Below, in pieces: positions 26,099 through 49,540 of a stretch of DNA of 64,000 nucleotides. A model generated the notes under the pieces. It made no database searches. It was not told where the DNA came from and worked only from the letters and a program-made list of their open reading frames with translations. Both the position numbers and the translations under genes were made by a program. Every line of letters begins with the position of its first letter. The stretch's first letter is position 1. Source of the stretch: Candidatus Roseilinea sp. (lineage in GTDB: Bacteria > Chloroflexota > Anaerolineae > J036 > Brachytrichaceae); contig BPHV01000001.1 of NCBI GenBank assembly GCA_026003755.1, positions 1,214,393 through 1,278,392 of the forward strand. The letters are read 5' to 3'.

Positions 26099-26170
26099 TG
26101 GGGCGTCGCCAAGTGGTAAGGCATCGGACTCTGGATCCGACATTCGTTGGTTCGAATCCAGCCGCCCCAG
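26099..26170 (+). tRNA. tRNA-Gln, anticodon CTG
   Basis: The 72-nt sequence folds as a cloverleaf. The acceptor TGGGGCG pairs with CGCCCCA. The D loop region is GCCAAGTGGTAAGGC. The anticodon stem TCGGA/TCCGA encloses the loop CTCTGGA, giving CTG, which reads CAG. The T arm is GTTGG-TTCGAAT-CCAGC with one G-U pair, and the discriminator is G170. The 3' CCA is not encoded. A hairpin terminator follows. Confidence 0.95.
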
Positions 26171-39978: not shown

Positions 39979-40007
39979 TTGACAGATTGCGCCTCATGGC
40001 TTACTAT
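39979..40007 (+). promoter_or_regulatory. Sigma-70 promoter of the shikimate operon
   Basis: A perfect TTGACA (39979-39984) and TACTAT (40002-40007) are separated by 17 bp. Transcription should begin about 40014, a few nucleotides before the leader ORF. Confidence 0.85.
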
Positions 40008-40023
40008 CTTGAGCATCTTGAAC

Positions 40024-40122
40024 ATGGTATTCGCGCGCTTTTGGGGCTACTTTTGGTTTAGCTACTTTGCCGTGGGCAAAGGCAGCTTACTGGCGCGCGA
40101 TTTCGAGACGACCGGCAGGTAA
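40024..40122 (+). CDS. Aromatic-amino-acid-rich leader peptide of the shikimate operon
   Basis: This 32-codon frame runs ATG to TAA. Codons 3-15 read FARFWGYFWFSYF: 5 Phe, 2 Trp and 2 Tyr out of 13. The rest is unremarkable (AVGKGSLLARDFETTGR). The run lies about 25 nt from the transcription start. A terminator hairpin begins 32 nt after the stop, just before a DAHP synthase gene. This is the architecture of ribosome-mediated attenuation: stalling at scarce Phe, Trp or Tyr tRNAs would keep RNA polymerase going. It is too short for most gene finders. There is no strong Shine-Dalgarno sequence. Confidence 0.8.
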   Translation: MVFARFWGYFWFSYFAVGKGSLLARDFETTGR

Positions 40123-40153
40123 CCCAACGCAGTAGCAAGTGCAGGTCAGGTAG

Positions 40154-40190
40154 AAGCGCGGAGCTGGTAAGCTCCGCGCTTTTGATTTCT
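40154..40190 (+). terminator. Attenuator terminator before aroG
   Basis: AAGCGCGGAGCT (40154-40165) and AGCTCCGCGCTT (40170-40181) form a perfect 12-bp stem with loop GGTA, and TTGATTTCT follows. It stands 27 bp before the DAHP synthase ATG and after the leader ORF, so it must be bypassed for operon expression. CGCGC (40094-40098) with TTC (40102-40104) could pair with GAAGCGCG (40153-40160) as an antiterminator. Confidence 0.82.
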
Positions 40191-40207
40191 ATACTGGGGA
40201 TGACACG

Positions 40208-41329
40208 ATGAACTACCAAACCGATGATGTCCGTATCCGCGAGATCAAAGAGCTGGCGCCGCCGGCGCATCTGATGCGGGAGTTCCCGATCACGCCGGAG
40301 GTGGCGAAGCTGGTCTACGAGACGCGCCACGCCGTGCATCGCATCCTGCACGGCGACGATGATCGCCTCTTCGTCGTCGTTGGGCCGTGCAGCGTGCACG
40401 ATGTGCAGGCGGCGTTTGAGTATGCGACGCGGTTGAAGCCCGTCCGGGATCGCTGCCGAGACGCGCTGGAGATCATCATGCGCGTGTATTTTGAAAAGCC
40501 GCGCACGACGATAGGCTGGAAGGGCCTCATCAACGATCCCGACCTCGACGGCTCATTCCGCATCAACAAGGGGCTGCGGATGGCGCGCAAGCTGTTGTTG
40601 GACATTAGCGAGTTGGGAGTACCGGCGGCCACCGAGTACCTCGATACCATCTCGCCCCAGTATGTCGCCGACCTGATCGCCTGGGGCGCCATCGGCGCGC
40701 GCACGACCGAGTCGCAGGTGCATCGCGAGCTGGCCAGCGGCCTATCATGTCCGGTCGGCTTCAAGAACGGCACCGACGGCAACATCAAGATCGCCATTGA
40801 TGCGATCAAAGCCGCTCGTCAGCCGCACCATTTTCTCTCGGTTACCAAAGGCGGCATCAGCGCCATCGTGCACACCGACGGCAACGATGACTGTCACATC
40901 GTGCTGCGCGGCGGCAAGGCGCCTAATTACGATCATGCCAGCGTGCGCGCGACGGCGGAGGCGCTACTGCGCGACGGCCTGTCGCCGCGCCTCATGATTG
41001 ATTGCTCGCATGGCAACAGCAACAAGAAGCATGAGCAGCAGCTTGTGGTCGCCGAGGACGTGGCCCGACAAATCGAAGCGGGCGAGCATGCCATTGCCGG
41101 CGTGATGCTGGAGTCGAACCTGCGCGAAGGCCGCCAAGACCTGACGCCGGGCCGCCCGCTTGAATACGGCAAGAGCATCACCGATGCCTGCCTCGGCTGG
41201 GAGGACACCGAGCGCGTGCTCGACCGGCTGGCCGAAGCCGCACGCGTTCGACGTCGCAGTCGCGCGACACCCCTTCACCCCATCGAGCATATGAACGGCA
41301 AGGTGGCGACCCGATGGACTCGCCCGTAA
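40208..41329 (+). CDS. aroG: DAHP synthase, type I-alpha (E. coli AroG-like)
   Basis: The 373-residue enzyme condenses phosphoenolpyruvate and erythrose 4-phosphate, the first shikimate step. Signatures are VVVGPCSVHDVQAA, RVYFEKPRTTIGWKGLINDP, AIGARTTESQVHRELASG, VGFKNGTDGNIKIAID and LMIDCSHGNSNKKHEQQ. These supply the metal-binding Cys and His and the PEP-binding Arg and Lys. It has the I-alpha N-terminal extension (DDVRIREIKELAPPAHL) that makes up the feedback-inhibition site in AroG/F/H. It is the first structural gene after the attenuator. Confidence 0.95.
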   Translation: MNYQTDDVRIREIKELAPPAHLMREFPITPEVAKLVYETRHAVHRILHGDDDRLFVVVGPCSVHDVQAAFEYATRLKPVRDRCRDALEIIMRVYFEKPRTTIGWKGLINDPDLDGSFRINKGLRMARKLLLDISELGVPAATEYLDTISPQYVADLIAWGAIGARTTESQVHRELASGLSCPVGFKNGTDGNIKIAIDAIKAARQPHHFLSVTKGGISAIVHTDGNDDCHIVLRGGKAPNYDHASVRATAEALLRDGLSPRLMIDCSHGNSNKKHEQQLVVAEDVARQIEAGEHAIAGVMLESNLREGRQDLTPGRPLEYGKSITDACLGWEDTERVLDRLAEAARVRRRSRATPLHPIEHMNGKVATRWTRP

Positions 41330-41402
41330 CACGGGTTTCACACCGCGATACCCGCAATAAAGGCAGCATGAGCTTAACTGTCAAACGCGAATGGTAGGAA
41401 GC

Positions 41403-42428
<1,026 letters not shown>

Positions 42429-42449: not shown

Positions 42450-43301
42450 GTGACACTTACGATTTGCATCGTCGGCCTCGGGCTCATGGGCGCCTCGTTC
42501 GCCTTGGCGCTGCGCGCCAACGGCTACGCGGGCCGGCTGATCGGCATCTCGCGCAGCGCCGAGACGCTGCGCAAGGCGCAGGCGCGCAATCTCGTGGATA
42601 TCGTCTCGTCGGAGCTGAGCCACGCCGGCGAGGCCGATGTGGTGGTGCTGTGCACGCCGGTGCGCACGCTCATCGCCCAGATTGGACAACTGGCCGACCT
42701 CTGCCGGCCCGGCGCGATCATCACCGACATGGGCAGCACCAAAACCGAAGTCGTCCGCGCCATGGACGCGCTGCCGGCGCACCTGCGCGCCGTCGGTTCG
42801 CATCCGATGTGCGGCAAAGAGACCGCCGGCATAGATGCGGCCGACGCATCGCTGTATCGGGGCGCGCCTTGGTTGCTCACCCGCACCCGGCGCAGCGACG
42901 ACGAGGCGCTGAGCATCGTCTGCGCCCTGGCGGAGCGCGTCGGCGCCACGCCGCGCGAAATCGGCGTCGAACATCACGACGCGCTATTAGCCTTCGCCAG
43001 CCACTTGCCCTATGCGCTGGCCGTCGCCCTGGTGACGGCGACCGACCAATTTAGCTTGAACCAACCGGAGGTCTGGCAGGTGACGGCCGGCGGCTTTCGC
43101 GATACCTCGCGCGTGGCCGCCAGCGACGTCGCCATGTGGCTGGACATTTTGCTGACGAACGCCGATGCCGTGCTCGGCGCTGTGCGCGACTTCCAGTTCA
43201 CGCTGGATCAATTCACCGCGCTGCTGGAGCGTCGTGACGAGGAGGGCCTGCGCGCCTTCCTCGCGGCTGCAGCTCAAGCGCGCAAAACACACTTCCGATG
43301 A
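42450..43301 (+). CDS. tyrA: Prephenate dehydrogenase
   Basis: The 283-residue enzyme oxidatively decarboxylates prephenate to 4-hydroxyphenylpyruvate for tyrosine. The NAD site is CIVGLGLMGASFALAL, followed by TDMGSTKTEV, GSHPMCGKETAGIDAA with the catalytic His, and the dimer helices ending AGGFRDTSRVA. No ACT domain is present. It starts at GTG and overlaps aroA by ATGA. Chorismate mutase, which makes its substrate, is not in the window. Confidence 0.93.
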   Translation: MTLTICIVGLGLMGASFALALRANGYAGRLIGISRSAETLRKAQARNLVDIVSSELSHAGEADVVVLCTPVRTLIAQIGQLADLCRPGAIITDMGSTKTEVVRAMDALPAHLRAVGSHPMCGKETAGIDAADASLYRGAPWLLTRTRRSDDEALSIVCALAERVGATPREIGVEHHDALLAFASHLPYALAVALVTATDQFSLNQPEVWQVTAGGFRDTSRVAASDVAMWLDILLTNADAVLGAVRDFQFTLDQFTALLERRDEEGLRAFLAAAAQARKTHFR

Positions 43302-44620
43302 CCGTCGAGACCGTTCAACCAACGCGCGCGCTGCGCGGGGTGCTGCGCGCGCCGAGCGACCGCAGCATCACGGTGCGGGCCGCTATCCTGGCCAGCGTCA
43401 CCGAGGGCGTCAGCCGCATCCGCGAGCCGCTGGAGAGCGACGACACGGATGCCGCGCTGCGCTGCATCGCTGCGCTGGGCGCGTCAGCGGCTCCGCTCGG
43501 CAGCGGCTGCGACTCAGCCGGCCTGCGCATCGCCGGCCGAGGATTGCGCGGCCTGCGCGCGCCGTCCCAACCACTGTTCTGCAACTCATCCGGCACGACG
43601 ATGCGGCTGCTGGCCGGCTTCTTGGCCGGGCAGGCATTCGACACGATACTGGACGGCAGCGAACAACTGCGCCGCCGCCCAATGCGCCGCGTCACCGATC
43701 CGCTGCGCCGCATGGGCGCACAGATCGAAGACTCAGACGGCCACGCACCGCTCGTCATCCGCGCCGCGCGTCACCCATTGCATGGGCTGACCTACGACAT
43801 GCCCATCGCCAGCGCGCAAGTGAAGAGCGCACTGCTCCTGGCCGGCTTATACGCGGATGGGCCGGTGACCGTTCGCGAGCCGGCGCCCACGCGCGACCAC
43901 ACCGAGCGCATGTTGCGCGCCGCGGGCGTCGAAGTCACCGTGGAAGCCGAAGGGGACGCCGGCTGCATCACCTTGCATCCGCCGCAGAAGCCACTGCGCG
44001 CGCTGGATATGCTGGTGCCGGCGGACTTCTCCTCGGCGGCGTTCTTCATGGTTGCGGCGGCCATCACGCCCGGCGCGCGGCTTCGCCTGGTCGAAGTCGG
44101 CTTGAACCCGACGCGCACCGGCCTGCTCGACGCGCTGCGCGCAATGGGGGCAACGATCCATCTGTCCGGCTTGCGCGAAGAGGGCGGCGAGCCGGTGGGC
44201 GATGTAGAAATCGTCGGCGGCGAGCTGCGCGGCGTCGAAGTGGGCGGCGCACTGACGCCGCGCATGATTGACGAGTTCCCCATCTTCGCCGTGGCCGCGA
44301 CGCAAGCGCATGGCGTCACCATCGTCCGCGACGCCGAGGAACTGCGCGTGAAGGAAAGCAACCGGCTGGAGGGTTTCGTCGGCGAGCTGCGCAAATTGGG
44401 TGCGCCGATTGAGGCGACGGCGGATGGGTTCATCGTCGAAGGGCCGGCCCGCCTGCGCGGCGCGGTTGTGGATGGCTTGGGCGATCACCGCGTGGCGATG
44501 GCGCTGGCCGTCGCCGCGTTGCGCGCCGAAGGCGAGACGACAATCCTCGGCGCCGAGTGCGTGGCCAAGACCTACCCGGCGTTCTTTCGCGACCTGGCGT
44601 CGCTGATCGCCGATCGCTGA
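43298..44620 (+). CDS. aroA: 3-phosphoshikimate 1-carboxyvinyltransferase (EPSP synthase) with Arg22
   Basis: The 440-residue enzyme joins PEP to shikimate 3-phosphate. SGTTMRLLAG, RRPMRRVTDPL, IASAQVKSALLLAG, IDEFPIFAVAA, ELRVKESNRLEGF and GDHRVAMALAVAAL identify it. The N-terminal PEP/phosphate loop reads APSDRSITVRA; aligned with E. coli PGSKSVSNRA without gaps, this puts Arg at position 22, where Lys22 is nearly invariant, while Ser23 and Arg27 remain. The next loop is CNSSGTTMR instead of GNAGTAMR. These changes may be lineage-specific. Confidence 0.93.
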   Translation: MTVETVQPTRALRGVLRAPSDRSITVRAAILASVTEGVSRIREPLESDDTDAALRCIAALGASAAPLGSGCDSAGLRIAGRGLRGLRAPSQPLFCNSSGTTMRLLAGFLAGQAFDTILDGSEQLRRRPMRRVTDPLRRMGAQIEDSDGHAPLVIRAARHPLHGLTYDMPIASAQVKSALLLAGLYADGPVTVREPAPTRDHTERMLRAAGVEVTVEAEGDAGCITLHPPQKPLRALDMLVPADFSSAAFFMVAAAITPGARLRLVEVGLNPTRTGLLDALRAMGATIHLSGLREEGGEPVGDVEIVGGELRGVEVGGALTPRMIDEFPIFAVAATQAHGVTIVRDAEELRVKESNRLEGFVGELRKLGAPIEATADGFIVEGPARLRGAVVDGLGDHRVAMALAVAALRAEGETTILGAECVAKTYPAFFRDLASLIADR

Positions 44621-44710: not shown

Positions 44711-45559
44711 ATGGTTGTCGGTTTGATCGGTCATCCGGTGGCGCACAGCAAAAGCCCGCAAATGCAGCAGGCGGCGTTCGCCTACGTCGGGTTGAGCGAC
44801 TGGCGCTACGAATTGTGGGACACGCCGCCGGAAGCCCTGCCGGCGCGCATGCGCGAGTTGGGCGAGCGCGAGGACATCGCCGGCTGCAACGTGACCCTCC
44901 CGCACAAACAGGCGGTGATGCCCTACCTCGACGCGGTGAGCCCACACGCGCGCGCCATCGGCGCAGTGAACACCCTCTTCAAACGCGGGCGCGCCCTGCT
45001 GGGCGATAACACCGACTGGATCGGCTTCCTGGCCGACTTGGCCTTTCACGGCGTGGATGTTCATGCCGAGACGCGAGCGTTGGTGCTGGGCGCCGGCGGT
45101 TCGGCGCGGGCAATTGTCTACGCGCTGGTGTCGCGGGGCGCGCGCGTGTGGATGCACAACCGCACGCCGGCCCGCGCCCAGCATCTGCTGGACGACCTAG
45201 CCCGTTCGCCCTACGCGCGCGAGGCGCGCGAGCGCTGCGCTGTGGTGGCCTCGCCGGTGGATTCAGCCTGTCAGACGGCCAACTTGATCGTCAACTGCAC
45301 CGCCGTCGGCATGTGGCCGCACGAGGACGACTCGCCGTGGCCCGACCGCACGCCCTTCCCGGCCGGCGTCACACTCTACGACCTGGTGTACAAGCCGCGC
45401 CGGACGAAGCTGATGCGACAGGCCGAGGCTGCCGGCGCGCGCGCCATCGGCGGCATGGGCATGTTGGCCGAGCAAGGCGCGGCGGCGTTCGAGCGGTGGA
45501 CGGGCGTGCCGGCTGCGCGCGTTTCGGCTATCATGCGGGAGGCGCTCCAAGATGCTTAG
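44711..45559 (+). CDS. aroE: Shikimate dehydrogenase
   Basis: The 282-residue enzyme reduces 3-dehydroshikimate with NADPH. Features are IGHPVAHSKSPQMQQAAF (substrate serines), CNVTLPHKQAVMPYLD with the catalytic Lys, GAVNTLF, GDNTDWIGF with the catalytic Asp, LVLGAGGSARAIVYAL and NRT for NADP, and GGMGMLAEQGAAAFE at the C terminus. It overlaps aroC by 8 bp. Confidence 0.95.
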   Translation: MVVGLIGHPVAHSKSPQMQQAAFAYVGLSDWRYELWDTPPEALPARMRELGEREDIAGCNVTLPHKQAVMPYLDAVSPHARAIGAVNTLFKRGRALLGDNTDWIGFLADLAFHGVDVHAETRALVLGAGGSARAIVYALVSRGARVWMHNRTPARAQHLLDDLARSPYAREARERCAVVASPVDSACQTANLIVNCTAVGMWPHEDDSPWPDRTPFPAGVTLYDLVYKPRRTKLMRQAEAAGARAIGGMGMLAEQGAAAFERWTGVPAARVSAIMREALQDA

Positions 45560-46736
45560 GTTCCTCACCGCCGGCGAATCGCACGGCCCATCGCTGACCG
45601 CCATCCTCGAAGGCATGCCCGCCGGCGTGCCGTTGCGCGCCGATGACATTGACCGCGACCTCGCCCGCCGCCAACAGGGCTACGGCAGCGGCGGACGGAT
45701 GAAGATCGAGCGCGACCACGCGCGCATCACTGCCGGCGTGATGGCCGGCAAGACCACCGGCGGCCCCATCGCCTTCGTCGTCGAGAACCTCGACCACGCC
45801 AAATGGAAAGACCGCGACATCGAACCGATGACCATTCCGCGCCCCGGCCACGCCGACCTGACCGGCGCGGTGAAATACGGCTATCGCGAGCTACGCCTGG
45901 CGCTGGAGCGCGCCTCGGCGCGCGAGACGACCATGCGCGTCGCCGTCGGCGCGGCCTGTCGTGCGCTGCTGCGACAGTTCGGCGTCGTCGTCGGCGGCTA
46001 CGTGGTCAGCATCGGCGAAGTGGAGACGCCCGACCACGCCTCGGCCGTGGACGCCGAGACCTACCTGCAGCGCTTTGCACAGGCCGAGGCCAGCGACGTG
46101 CGCTGCTATCACCCCCCCACCGCCGAGCGCATGCGCGCTCGCATCGCCGAGATCATCGCCGCGAAGGACACGCTGGGCGGCGTCGTCGAGGTGGTCGCGC
46201 TGCACGTGCCGCCCGGCCTCGGCAGCCATGTGCACTGGGATCGCCGCTTGAGCGCACGGTTGGCGCAGGTGGTGATGAGCGTGCACGCCGTCAAGGGCGT
46301 CGAGATCGGCGATGGCTTTGCCGAGGCGCGCCGGCCCGGCACCCAAGCGCAAGACCAGCTCTACACCGCCGATGGCATGATCCGCCAGCGCACCAATCAC
46401 GCCGGCGGCCTGGAGGGCGGCATCACCAACGGCGCGCCGATCGTCGTGCGCGCTGCGCTCAAGCCCATCGCCACCACGCTCAACCCGCTTGACTCGGTGG
46501 ACTTGGCCACCGGCCAGATGGTCAAGACGAAATACGAGCGGAGCGACTTTTGCCAGGTGCCGCGCGCCGTCCCGATCATCGAGGCGATGGTGTGCTTCGC
46601 CCTGGCCGATGCGCTCATCGAGAAGCTGGGCGGCGACTCGCTGGACGAAATGCGCCCGCGCTTCGCGGCGCTGCGCCGGCTGCGGCTGGACGATTTGCCG
46701 ATGGACGCCCTACCCTGGCGCTTCGGCTATGAGTGA
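45552..46736 (+). CDS. aroC: Chorismate synthase
   Basis: The 394-residue FMN-dependent enzyme makes chorismate from EPSP. It shows LTAGESHGPSLTAILEGMPAG, RRQQGYGSGGRMKIE, PRPGHADLTGAVKYGY, LERASARETTMRVAVGA and TNHAGGLEGGITNG. The conserved histidines and arginines are in these loops. It starts inside the end of aroE, and 9 bp separate it from the aroK-aroB fusion. Confidence 0.96.
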   Translation: MLRFLTAGESHGPSLTAILEGMPAGVPLRADDIDRDLARRQQGYGSGGRMKIERDHARITAGVMAGKTTGGPIAFVVENLDHAKWKDRDIEPMTIPRPGHADLTGAVKYGYRELRLALERASARETTMRVAVGAACRALLRQFGVVVGGYVVSIGEVETPDHASAVDAETYLQRFAQAEASDVRCYHPPTAERMRARIAEIIAAKDTLGGVVEVVALHVPPGLGSHVHWDRRLSARLAQVVMSVHAVKGVEIGDGFAEARRPGTQAQDQLYTADGMIRQRTNHAGGLEGGITNGAPIVVRAALKPIATTLNPLDSVDLATGQMVKTKYERSDFCQVPRAVPIIEAMVCFALADALIEKLGGDSLDEMRPRFAALRRLRLDDLPMDALPWRFGYE

Positions 46737-46745
46737 TCGCCAAAG

Positions 46746-48398
46746 ATGTGTGAGGACATCGCCGACCCTCCTCGCAACCTCATCCTCGCCGGCTTCATGG
46801 GCACGGGAAAGAGCACCGTCGGCCGGCTCTGCGCACAGCAGCTCGGGCTGCCCTTCGTGGACACCGACGAGGAGATCAGCCAACGCGAAGGGATGCCGAT
46901 TCCGGCGATCTTCGCCTCGCGCGGCGAGGGCTATTTTCGCGCCCGCGAGCGCGCACTCGTCGCCGAGCTGAGCGCGCGCCGGAACTGCGTCATCGCCACC
47001 GGCGGCGGCATGATCGTGGACGACGACAACCGCGCAGCGCTGCTCCGCAGCGGCGTTGGCGTGTGTCTCACGGCGACGCCGGAGGTCATTGCGCAGCGCG
47101 TGGGCAGTGCGGCAGCCGCCGAGCGCCCGATGCTGCACAGCGACGACGTGATCGCACGCATTACGCAGCTCTTGCGCGAGCGCGCGCCCAAATACGCTCA
47201 GTTGCACTATTCGGTAGACACCGCTCAACGCGCCCCCGACGAGGTCGCCGCGTTGGTGTGCGAAGCCTACCGGCGCGAGCGCATCCGGATCGCGGTGGAC
47301 GCGCCCGCAGCCAGCGCGCGCTACGACATCGTCATCGGCGAGGGCGCGCTGGACACGCTGGGATTCATGCTGGCCGGGCGCGGCTGGGCGCCGCCGTTCG
47401 CCGTGGTGAGCGATGCACACGTCGCCGCACGCTATGGCGAGCGCGTGCTGTGTGCGCTGGCGCGCGCCGGCCTGGACGGCTTTCTGCACGTCATGCCTGC
47501 CGGCGAGGCGCACAAGACGCTGGCCAGCGTCGAGGCCATGTATCGCGCCTTCAGCGCGCACGGCATGGAGCGCACGAGCGCCGTCATCGCGCTAGGCGGC
47601 GGCGTGGTGGGCGACACGGCCGGCTTCGCCTCGGCCACCTTCCTGCGCGGCGTGCCGCTCGTCCAGGTGCCCACCTCGCTGCTGGCAATGGCCGATTCCA
47701 GCATCGGTGGCAAGGTCGGCGTGGATACCGACTTTGGCAAGAACTTGGTCGGCGCGTTCAAACAACCTGATTTAGTGGTGGCCGACTTGAGCGTGCTGGC
47801 TTCGCTGCCGCCGCGCGAGCTGCGCTGCGGGCTGGCCGAAATCGTCAAAGCGGCCCTGCTCAGCGGCGGCGCAGCCTATGTGCGGTTGCGCGAGGCGGCG
47901 ACGAGCGGCGCGTTGACCGATTGGCGCAGCCCGGCGCTGCTCAATGCGCTGGTGGACGCCATCCTGCTCAAGCGCGCGATGGTGCAAGCCGACCCATTCG
48001 AGCGCGGCCAGCGCGCCCTGCTGAATCTGGGCCACACCTTCGGCCACGGCCTGGAGGCGTGGAGCGGCTTTCGGCTGAAGCACGGCGAGGCGGTGGCGTT
48101 GGGCCTGGTCTGCGCCGCGCGGCTTTCGCATGCGATGGGCGTTTGCGAGGATGCGCTGGTGGCCGAAGTGATCGGCCTGCTGCGCAGCGTCGGCCTGCCG
48201 GCGGCGCTCGACGACGCGCGCGATGCGCTCGGCGGCCTGGCGTTTGCGCCGGACGCAGTGTGGCGCTACATGCTGAGCGACAAGAAGAAGCGCGCCGGCA
48301 AGCTGCGCTTCGTTCTGCTGCGCGCGCCGGGCGATGCCTTTGTGTGCGACGCCGTGCCGGAAAAGATGGCGCAAGACGCGCTGGCGTCGCTGAGATAA
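46746..48398 (+). CDS. aroKB: Shikimate kinase / 3-dehydroquinate synthase fusion
   Basis: The 550-residue protein joins two enzymes. Residues of about 10-178 are shikimate kinase: [14 protein letters not shown] (Walker A), [22 protein letters not shown] and ATGGGMI. Residues of about 190-550 are 3-dehydroquinate synthase: [72 protein letters not shown] and [13 protein letters not shown]. The zinc ligands Glu and two His are present. The two steps it catalyses are non-consecutive (2 and 5). Similar AroK-AroB fusions exist in Thermotoga and other thermophiles. GTG/ATG alternatives are not needed; the ATG is 9 bp after aroC. Confidence 0.95.
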
Positions 48399-48414: not shown

Positions 48415-48957
48415 ATGGAGAACACAGCGGACAGATCGCAGCGCCCAGCAGAGCCGCAACCAGCGAGCGACGCCGGTTCCGCAATGGCCGGCGCGCCGTA
48501 TGCCATTCTCGTGCTGCACGGCCCCAACCTGAATTTGCTCGGCTTGCGCGAGCCGGATGTGTATGGCCGCGTCACGCTGGAGGACATCAACCGGCGCTTG
48601 CGCGAGCTGGCCGCGCAGCGCGGCGCTGCGCTGCGCATTGCACAGTCGAACCACGAGGGCGCCTTGATTGATGCCATCCACCACGCGCGCGCATGGGCGC
48701 ACGGCATCCTGATCAACCCCGGCGGCCTGACGCACACCAGCGTCGCCCTGCGCGATGCAATTAGCGCGATCGCCTTGCCGTGCGTCGAAGTGCATCTCTC
48801 GAACGTGCACAAACGCGAGCCTTTCCGCCACCGCTCGTTCATCTCGCCGGTCGCCGTCGGCGTGATCGCCGGCTTTGGCTGGCGCAGCTACACATTGGGC
48901 TTGACGGCATTGCTGGACATCCTGGCTGAGCAGTCGCACAATCGGACCGATGGATGA
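48415..48957 (+). CDS. aroQ: 3-dehydroquinate dehydratase, type II
   Basis: The 180-residue protein has [20 protein letters not shown] with the catalytic Tyr, [32 protein letters not shown] and [14 protein letters not shown], all typical of dodecameric type II dehydroquinase. The first 23 residues are a polar extension not usually found. An internal start at 48484 would remove it, but GAGG 5 nt before ATG 48415 favours the longer form. It completes the seven-step set in this operon. Confidence 0.93.
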
Positions 48958-49540
48958 AGCGGGGTTGATCCGCGCGGCGCAGCGCGGCGATGTGGCCGCG
49001 TTCAACCAACTGGTGCTGGCCTACCAGTCTCAGGTTTACAACGTCGCCTATCGCATCCTGGGCGAGCCGGCCGCAGCAGCCGACGCAGCACAGGAGGCGT
49101 TCCTCTCGGCGTTCACGCACATTAACGACTATCGCGGCGGTTCGTTCAAGGCCTGGCTGCTGCGCATCGTGACCAACGCCTGCTACGATGCGCTGCGCTA
49201 TGCGCAACGCCGGCCGACTGCTTCGCTCGATGCCCGCGACGACGCCGACGAGGGGCGCAGCCTGGCCGAGGTGTTGCCCGCCGACGACGAGGACCCCCTG
49301 CACGCCGCCGAGCGCAGCGACCTGCGCCGCTTCATCGGGCGCGCCGCGTTGCAACTGCCGCCCGACCAGCGCATCACGTTTGTGCTGTCCGACGTGCAAG
49401 GCTTGAGCTATGAAGAAATTGCTGAGGTGATGCAGGTGTCGCTCGGCACGGTGAAGAGCCGGCTGAGCCGGGCGCGCGCCAAGCTGCGCGATGCCCTGCT
49501 GGCCCATGCGGAACTGCTGCCCGACGAGTTCCGTCAGTAA
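48950..49540 (+). CDS. ECF-type RNA polymerase sigma factor
   Basis: The 196-residue protein has region 2 ([20 protein letters not shown], then [20 protein letters not shown]) and region 4 ([21 protein letters not shown], as a helix-turn-helix) without region 3, the ECF/sigma-E layout. It overlaps the end of aroQ by 8 bp, so it is translated with the shikimate genes. The next gene overlaps its stop (TAATG). Its target promoters are unknown. Confidence 0.93.

Follow-up and report, generated by a model that had tools for sequence, protein, structure and literature searches.

The locus described here lies in a 64,000-nucleotide stretch of the genome of Candidatus Roseilinea sp., and the term window refers to the whole of that stretch. 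A sigma-70-type promoter is followed by a short leader reading frame, by an intrinsic terminator hairpin and then by aroG, the first of eight pathway genes that run from aroG to aroQ with intergenic gaps of no more than 90 nt (Table 1). On the basis of their Pfam matches these genes represent the complete shikimate set, which leads from central metabolites to chorismate, together with tyrA, and the statement of an earlier note on this DNA that the aroG start codon heads a complete shikimate operon is therefore supported. An ECF sigma factor gene (window 48950–49540) has 8 bases in common with the end of aroQ, and the operon may close with it. The gene upstream of the leader (39791–38721) is encoded on the opposite strand and is divergent, and hence the terminator is not its 3' end.

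Table 1. Features of the leader region and of the operon behind it, in window coordinates.
Feature	Position	Strand	Basis
Sigma-70-type promoter, TTGACA (39979–39984), 17 nt, TACTAT (40002–40007)	39979–40007	+	sequence and promoter scan
Leader ORF MVFARFWGYFWFSYFAVGKGSLLARDFETTGR (ATG 40024, TAA 40120–40122), predicted ribosome-stall sensor	40024–40122	+	homologue in 26 of the 28 genomes of the family
Hairpin P1 (AGCU.CUUUGCC : GGCAAAG..AGCU), predicted anti-antiterminator ('1:2')	40060–40087	+	covariation, 26 sequences
Predicted antiterminator, 5' strand (AGCUUACUGGC.CGCG.UUUC)	40084–40104	+	masked folding and covariation
Predicted antiterminator, 3' strand, sharing bases with the 5' arm and loop of the terminator and with 4 nt at the start of its 3' arm	40153–40173	+	folding and covariation
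Intrinsic terminator hairpin; T-rich tail 40185–40193	40151–40184	+	fold energy and covariation
aroG, DAHP synthase like that of E. coli (proteobacterial type), at the operon head in the window's genus	40208–41329	+	PF00793
aroF-type DAHP synthase with ferredoxin-like domain	41391–42428	+	PF00793, PF18152
tyrA, prephenate dehydrogenase	42450–43301	+	PF02153, PF20463
aroA, EPSP synthase	43298–44620	+	PF00275
aroE, shikimate dehydrogenase	44711–45559	+	PF08501, PF18317
aroC, chorismate synthase	45552–46736	+	PF01264
aroK-aroB fusion, shikimate kinase and 3-dehydroquinate synthase	46746–48398	+	PF01202, PF01761, PF24621
aroQ, type II 3-dehydroquinase	48415–48957	+	PF01220

The leader ORF is 32 codons long and contains nine Phe, Trp or Tyr residues within codons 3–15. 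The promoter, the reading frame with its stop codon and the nine aromatic codons are all as the earlier note had given them, and the hairpin with a T-rich tail, which it had placed at 40154–40190, was essentially right. Phe, Trp and Tyr together account for 5.2% in the shikimate operon itself. No other start-to-stop ORF of the 64 kb window has more than six of these residues per 13 codons. First-order Markov copies of the window, of which 20 were made, yielded not a single ORF with seven or more. The aromatic enrichment of the leader ORF is thus beyond chance, as had been proposed. A Shine–Dalgarno site was not found for the leader ORF at the window locus, and the likely transcription start, as predicted from this promoter, is a mere 10 nt or so ahead of the ATG. 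Neither Pfam nor NCBIfam holds any model for the leader peptide.

The family to which the genome belongs, which in the collection used here is the whole order, is represented by 28 genomes from eight genera. The leader is present at the operon head in 26 of these genomes and in all eight genera, and a covariance model built from the 26 leaders recovers the same 26 family genomes and no more. The operon heads of the remaining two were not seen, with one (G009) giving no aroF match and the other (G014) having aroF only at a contig end. A TTGACA box, a spacer of 16–17 nt and either TANNAT or TAGAGT precede 24 of the 26 leaders, with 12–20 nt between the -10 box and the ATG in those 24, and a terminator follows all 26. 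The gene behind the leader is aroG in 12 cases, aroF in six and aroH in eight; since the same leader stands ahead of any of the three, it belongs to the operon and not to aroG. The leader-ORF pattern was present in 11 genomes, once per genome, and no second strong match to the covariance model was found in the genome of the window, so there is no evidence of its use by other operons.

The transcript of the region is predicted to form three structures. The terminator consists of 15 pairs (40151–40165 with 40170–40184) with a fold energy of -26.2 kcal/mol (z -6.3) and is followed by ATTTCTATAC; in the genus of the window the U-tract after it is interrupted (GATTTCTAT). The hairpin P1 (-12.6 kcal/mol) pairs 40060–40071 with 40075–40087 and spans the last Tyr-Phe codons of the aromatic run, Tyr14 and Phe15. 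Folding of the leader RNA, which the earlier note had suggested as a check, bears out the terminator hairpin that it described. The antiterminator is composed of a main helix of 11 bp (40084–40094 with 40163–40173) and two shorter ones (40096–40099 with 40157–40160, and 40101–40104 with 40153–40156). Of these, the earlier note had recognised the pairing of CGCGC/UUC with GAAGCGCG, which is conserved but is only a minor part of the antiterminator, the main 11-bp helix having been overlooked. It had also proposed that GCGCG in codons 4–5 pairs with CGCGC as the 1:2 helix. This pairing is present in the sequence but is not conserved, with 62% of cells paired against 60% when the register is slid by +2, and was rejected as a conserved element. 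Instead, the predicted competitor of the antiterminator is P1, over the Tyr14-Phe15 codons. P1, the antiterminator and the terminator share strands and would hence be mutually exclusive, and each is conserved in sequence with double changes.

Two further elements lie between the leader stop codon and the terminator. Directly after the stop codon, CCAAAAGTAGC (window 40123–40136) is in most members of the genus (for example L004, L006 and L008) the perfect complement of GCTACTTTTGG within the aromatic codons, which could possibly provide an extra alternative hairpin; the copy in the window is degenerate. The second, GCAGGTCAGG (window 40141–40150), is near-invariant across the genus.

The 26 leaders were aligned with MAFFT, with no fitting to the structures. 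In this alignment 93% of the cells of P1 are paired, 84% of those of the antiterminator and 93% of those of the terminator, with double changes at 4 of 11, 12 of 19 and 8 of 15 pairs, respectively. The covariation score of each structure was reached by none of 500 shuffles, a control that leaves shared ancestry in, such that related sequences can beat column shuffles even without structure. Slid registers of all three were far worse than the true ones. When the RNA was masked as far as 10 nt beyond the final aromatic codon and the transcript was ended just inside the 3' arm of the terminator, the antiterminator formed in all 26 leaders, with 14–21 pairs to the terminator. Among 18 representatives, strands paired better with their own partner than in all of 5000 permutations, for both P1 and the antiterminator, although this strand swap is partly confounded because unequal G+C may contribute. 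Scored as single sequences, P1 and the antiterminator each fold only modestly well on their own (z about -1.8). The comparison with relatives finds the aromatic run, the terminator and the covarying stems kept in the 26 leaders, in line with the earlier note.

To compare the codons, positions were counted back over 13 codons from the last aromatic one. Aromatic residues stand at positions -1, -2, -4, -5, -6 and -7 in 26, 25, 25, 25, 21 and 26 of the 26 leaders, respectively, and at position -10 in 23, and are much rarer at -8, -9, -11 and -12. In the window the conserved codons are 9–12, 14 and 15. These best-kept codons are where a stalled ribosome would be expected to overlap P1, assuming that it covers about 10–14 nt past the codon at which it stalls.

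Conservation of this kind might also be expected if the ORF encoded a small functional peptide, for example a membrane peptide, with the hairpin as its own terminator and the operon expressed from a separate promoter or by read-through. The frame is indeed conserved and open in 26 genomes, and within its aromatic core some residues are invariant in the 12 closest leaders. Phe, Tyr and Trp nevertheless interchange freely, such that of 36 single-base codon differences at aromatic positions 21 leave the residue aromatic, where 8.5 would be expected, and the C-terminal part of the peptide drifts even as the overlapping RNA helices are retained. The element is moreover placed at the heads of aromatic operons, and a promoter scan from the hairpin to aroG gave no better site, the only one being ATGACA/GATGAT at 40200 (9/12), which overlaps aroG. 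A peptide with a function of its own is therefore very improbable. An aroG promoter beyond the hairpin and a lack of conservation of the leader codons were the two sequence-based outcomes that the earlier note had named as refuting its proposal; what is found is codons that are conserved and a scan that gives no better promoter.

Premature terminators with alternative pairings are equally the design of T-box elements and metabolite riboswitches, where direct sensing of uncharged tRNA or of an aromatic compound would make the ORF incidental. At curated score, however, no Rfam attenuator, T-box or riboswitch family was matched in the window, where the only match is a tRNA (26099–26170), or in any of 16 loci carrying this element or its proteobacterial counterpart described below. 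Furthermore, the aromatic frame is the best-conserved feature of the element, and at several positions it is codons and not bases that are kept. Of the explanations considered here this one is given the least credence.

The features by which an attenuator can be recognised from sequence are all present: an aromatic-rich ORF after a promoter, a terminator before the first gene, predicted mutually exclusive hairpins, and downstream genes that make the amino acids that would be sensed. The region 39979–40207 is therefore read, with a probability of about 90%, as a ribosome-mediated transcription attenuator of the classical 1:2, 2:3, 3:4 type, a reading that fits the conservation and covariation in the 26 relatives. 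Transcription would begin just before 40024, with a ribosome translating the leader behind the RNA polymerase. Given ample charged tRNA-Phe and tRNA-Tyr, and in the species of the window also tRNA-Trp, the ribosome would reach the stop codon, after its passage P1 would re-form and hide 40084–40087, and the terminator would form and switch the operon off. A shortage of any one of them would stall the ribosome at codons 9–15, where it would cover P1 and free the 5' strand of the antiterminator. This strand could then pair with 40153–40173, such that the terminator is lost and the polymerase proceeds into aroG and the rest of the operon. Leader translation, stalling, termination in vivo and the response to starvation are all steps that we infer from the sequence.

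The earlier note had proposed that all three aromatic residues are sensed together; Phe and Tyr are present in 26 of 26 family leaders, while Trp is missing from five. A narrower form of the attenuator reading, in which Phe and Tyr are essentially the only signals and the Trp codons are bystanders, draws on these counts (Trp in 21 of 26) and on some leaders elsewhere in the phylum that have no Trp in their aromatic run. In the species of the window, however, W11 is among the codons at which stalling would be expected to disturb P1, and the narrower form is rated at slightly below even odds.

Applied to the class, the covariance model of the family (R1) finds matches in 137 of 396 genomes at E 0.01, a number that includes the family itself and chance matches to the terminator only. 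Beyond the class, the matches are chiefly full-length ones in the phylum families f71 and f107. The 53 non-family matches that were examined individually, mostly full-length, have an aromatic gene as the nearest downstream gene of that kind in 49 cases (aroH in 45, pheA in three and aroKB in one), with Pfam supporting the identity of one AroH and one PheA example. Nearly all of these 49 loci have an aromatic-run ORF and a terminator, but as R1 favours aromatic codons by construction the downstream genes are the sole independent evidence outside the family. The antiterminator of non-family loci beats its shuffles on average (12.9 against 8.2 pairs), and does so at 32 of 39 loci. The other four matches (L235, L238, L250 and L251) have no aromatic gene or convincing leader and were rejected as false positives. 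At L210 (G308:C206), the aromatic leader is apparently separated from aroH by a transposase-like ORF resembling IS110, at about position 314 onwards on the strand of the leader. The earlier note had expected such an element to be unusual; it is no rarity of one genome, being found throughout the family and again across the phylum. The genome of the window also carries type II reaction-centre L and M genes (two PF00124 matches, G000:C1:335483–337315), and one reaction-centre protein has its best PDB matches in 8iug, 8ydm, 5yq7 and 8hju, chains that we take to be from Roseiflexus and Chloroflexus, which supports a place for this genome in Chloroflexota.

The gene at the head of the operon probably has a history of its own. 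An AroG-type match is present in only 19 of 396 class genomes, the nearest relatives of AroG outside the family are from Betaproteobacteria, and in a quick tree, with the nearest matches as outgroups, the AroG of the family operon heads groups with that of G013 within the betaproteobacterial AroG. Several sister genera have a second aroF at the place of aroG. It is thus probable that an aroG of proteobacterial type was acquired by the family, and the simplest reading would be that in three genera it replaced the first aroF behind a pre-existing attenuator.

Proteobacterial aroG genes often have an aromatic leader themselves. In the 320 nt upstream of 80 proteobacterial aroG loci, 35 have at least six and 21 at least seven F/W/Y per 13 codons, against 1.4% and 0.24% of random windows, and a terminator stands before aroG in 34 of those 35 compared with 2 of 70 random stretches. 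These leaders are found in beta- and alphaproteobacteria (L018–L097, for example L039:4821–4967 and L046:4825–4967), and none of five tested loci matched Rfam. They share with the leader of the window an aromatic-run ORF and a strong terminator (L039, L046 and L061) but belong to another phylum and have another terminator sequence, with a GCCGCCAG stem, and homology between the two is unproven. They are apparently a second family of aromatic attenuators.

The possibility therefore arises that the attenuator is real but that its leader came with aroG from a betaproteobacterium and is not native to the operon. The position of the family AroG within the betaproteobacterial group and the frequent leader and terminator of proteobacterial aroG would both fit, as would the scores of R1, which finds two proteobacterial leaders at E below 1e-6, with the others near chance. 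This import was initially favoured and was dropped because sister genera that lack aroG at the head have the same leader before aroF or aroH. Other families of the class and phylum carry such a leader too, and the terminator sequences differ between the two groups, such that import is improbable, if less so than a functional peptide. Somewhat favoured instead is a wider history for the native attenuator, in which one aromatic attenuator family has been in the phylum, probably Chloroflexota, since early on and stayed at the operon head while the first gene was swapped (aroH, aroF, pheA or a DAHP synthase derived from Proteobacteria). The RNA would then be older, and steadier in its place, than the gene that it controls, and a second, separate and apparently undescribed attenuator family would serve the proteobacterial aroG.

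Leader-peptide attenuation is a textbook mechanism in Proteobacteria and is also known in Actinobacteria, and the trp and pheA attenuators of E. coli have mutually exclusive hairpins and an intrinsic terminator before the first gene. Control of these operons by the leader peptides trpL and pheL is described in a published account (PMC11802643). The element of the window shares with trpL and pheL a leader rich in the regulated amino acid, exclusive hairpins and a terminator before the first gene. Unlike them, it stands before the common shikimate pathway and not one terminal branch, mixes Phe, Tyr and Trp codons and belongs to another phylum; its predicted antiterminator extends into the terminator loop and the start of the 3' arm, its start is near-leaderless and it has no Rfam match. 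By analogy, the nearest functional precedent is aroR of C. glutamicum, where a Phe-Tyr-Phe leader before the aroF operon is reported to mediate ribosome-dependent attenuation that responds to Phe limitation (Neshat et al. 2014, cited in PMC11802643; PMC4046766). With the leader of the window aroR shares a leader peptide and attenuation before a DAHP synthase operon, a likeness by layout only, as aroR is from Actinomycetota and has three consecutive aromatic codons against nine in 13 here. The uORFC-13-1 motif of Acholeplasma, a predicted element before aroF, has a uORF with Phe codon(s), a promoter and a terminator (PMC8632094); compared by description, it has the same layout before a DAHP synthase as the leader of the window, with at least one Phe codon only and in a different phylum.

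In the openly accessible literature no description of leader-peptide attenuation was found for Chloroflexi, Chloroflexota, Anaerolineae or Roseiflexus, although an earlier prediction in comparative surveys (Vitreschak; Lopatovskaya) is possible, and one survey considered its own Chloroflexi sample too small for judgement (PMC4833913). The attenuation mechanism is hence a known one, and the phylum-wide family is, as far as found, undescribed. If the attenuator reading is right, a deep-branching and partly phototrophic phylum would control all of its aromatic pathway through the coupling of translation to transcription, and such coupling would then be implied in these cells. The family would also provide a case of a control element that was kept while the head gene was swapped, and its natural variants, in some of which Trp is lost while Phe and Tyr are kept, could be used to find which codons set the response.
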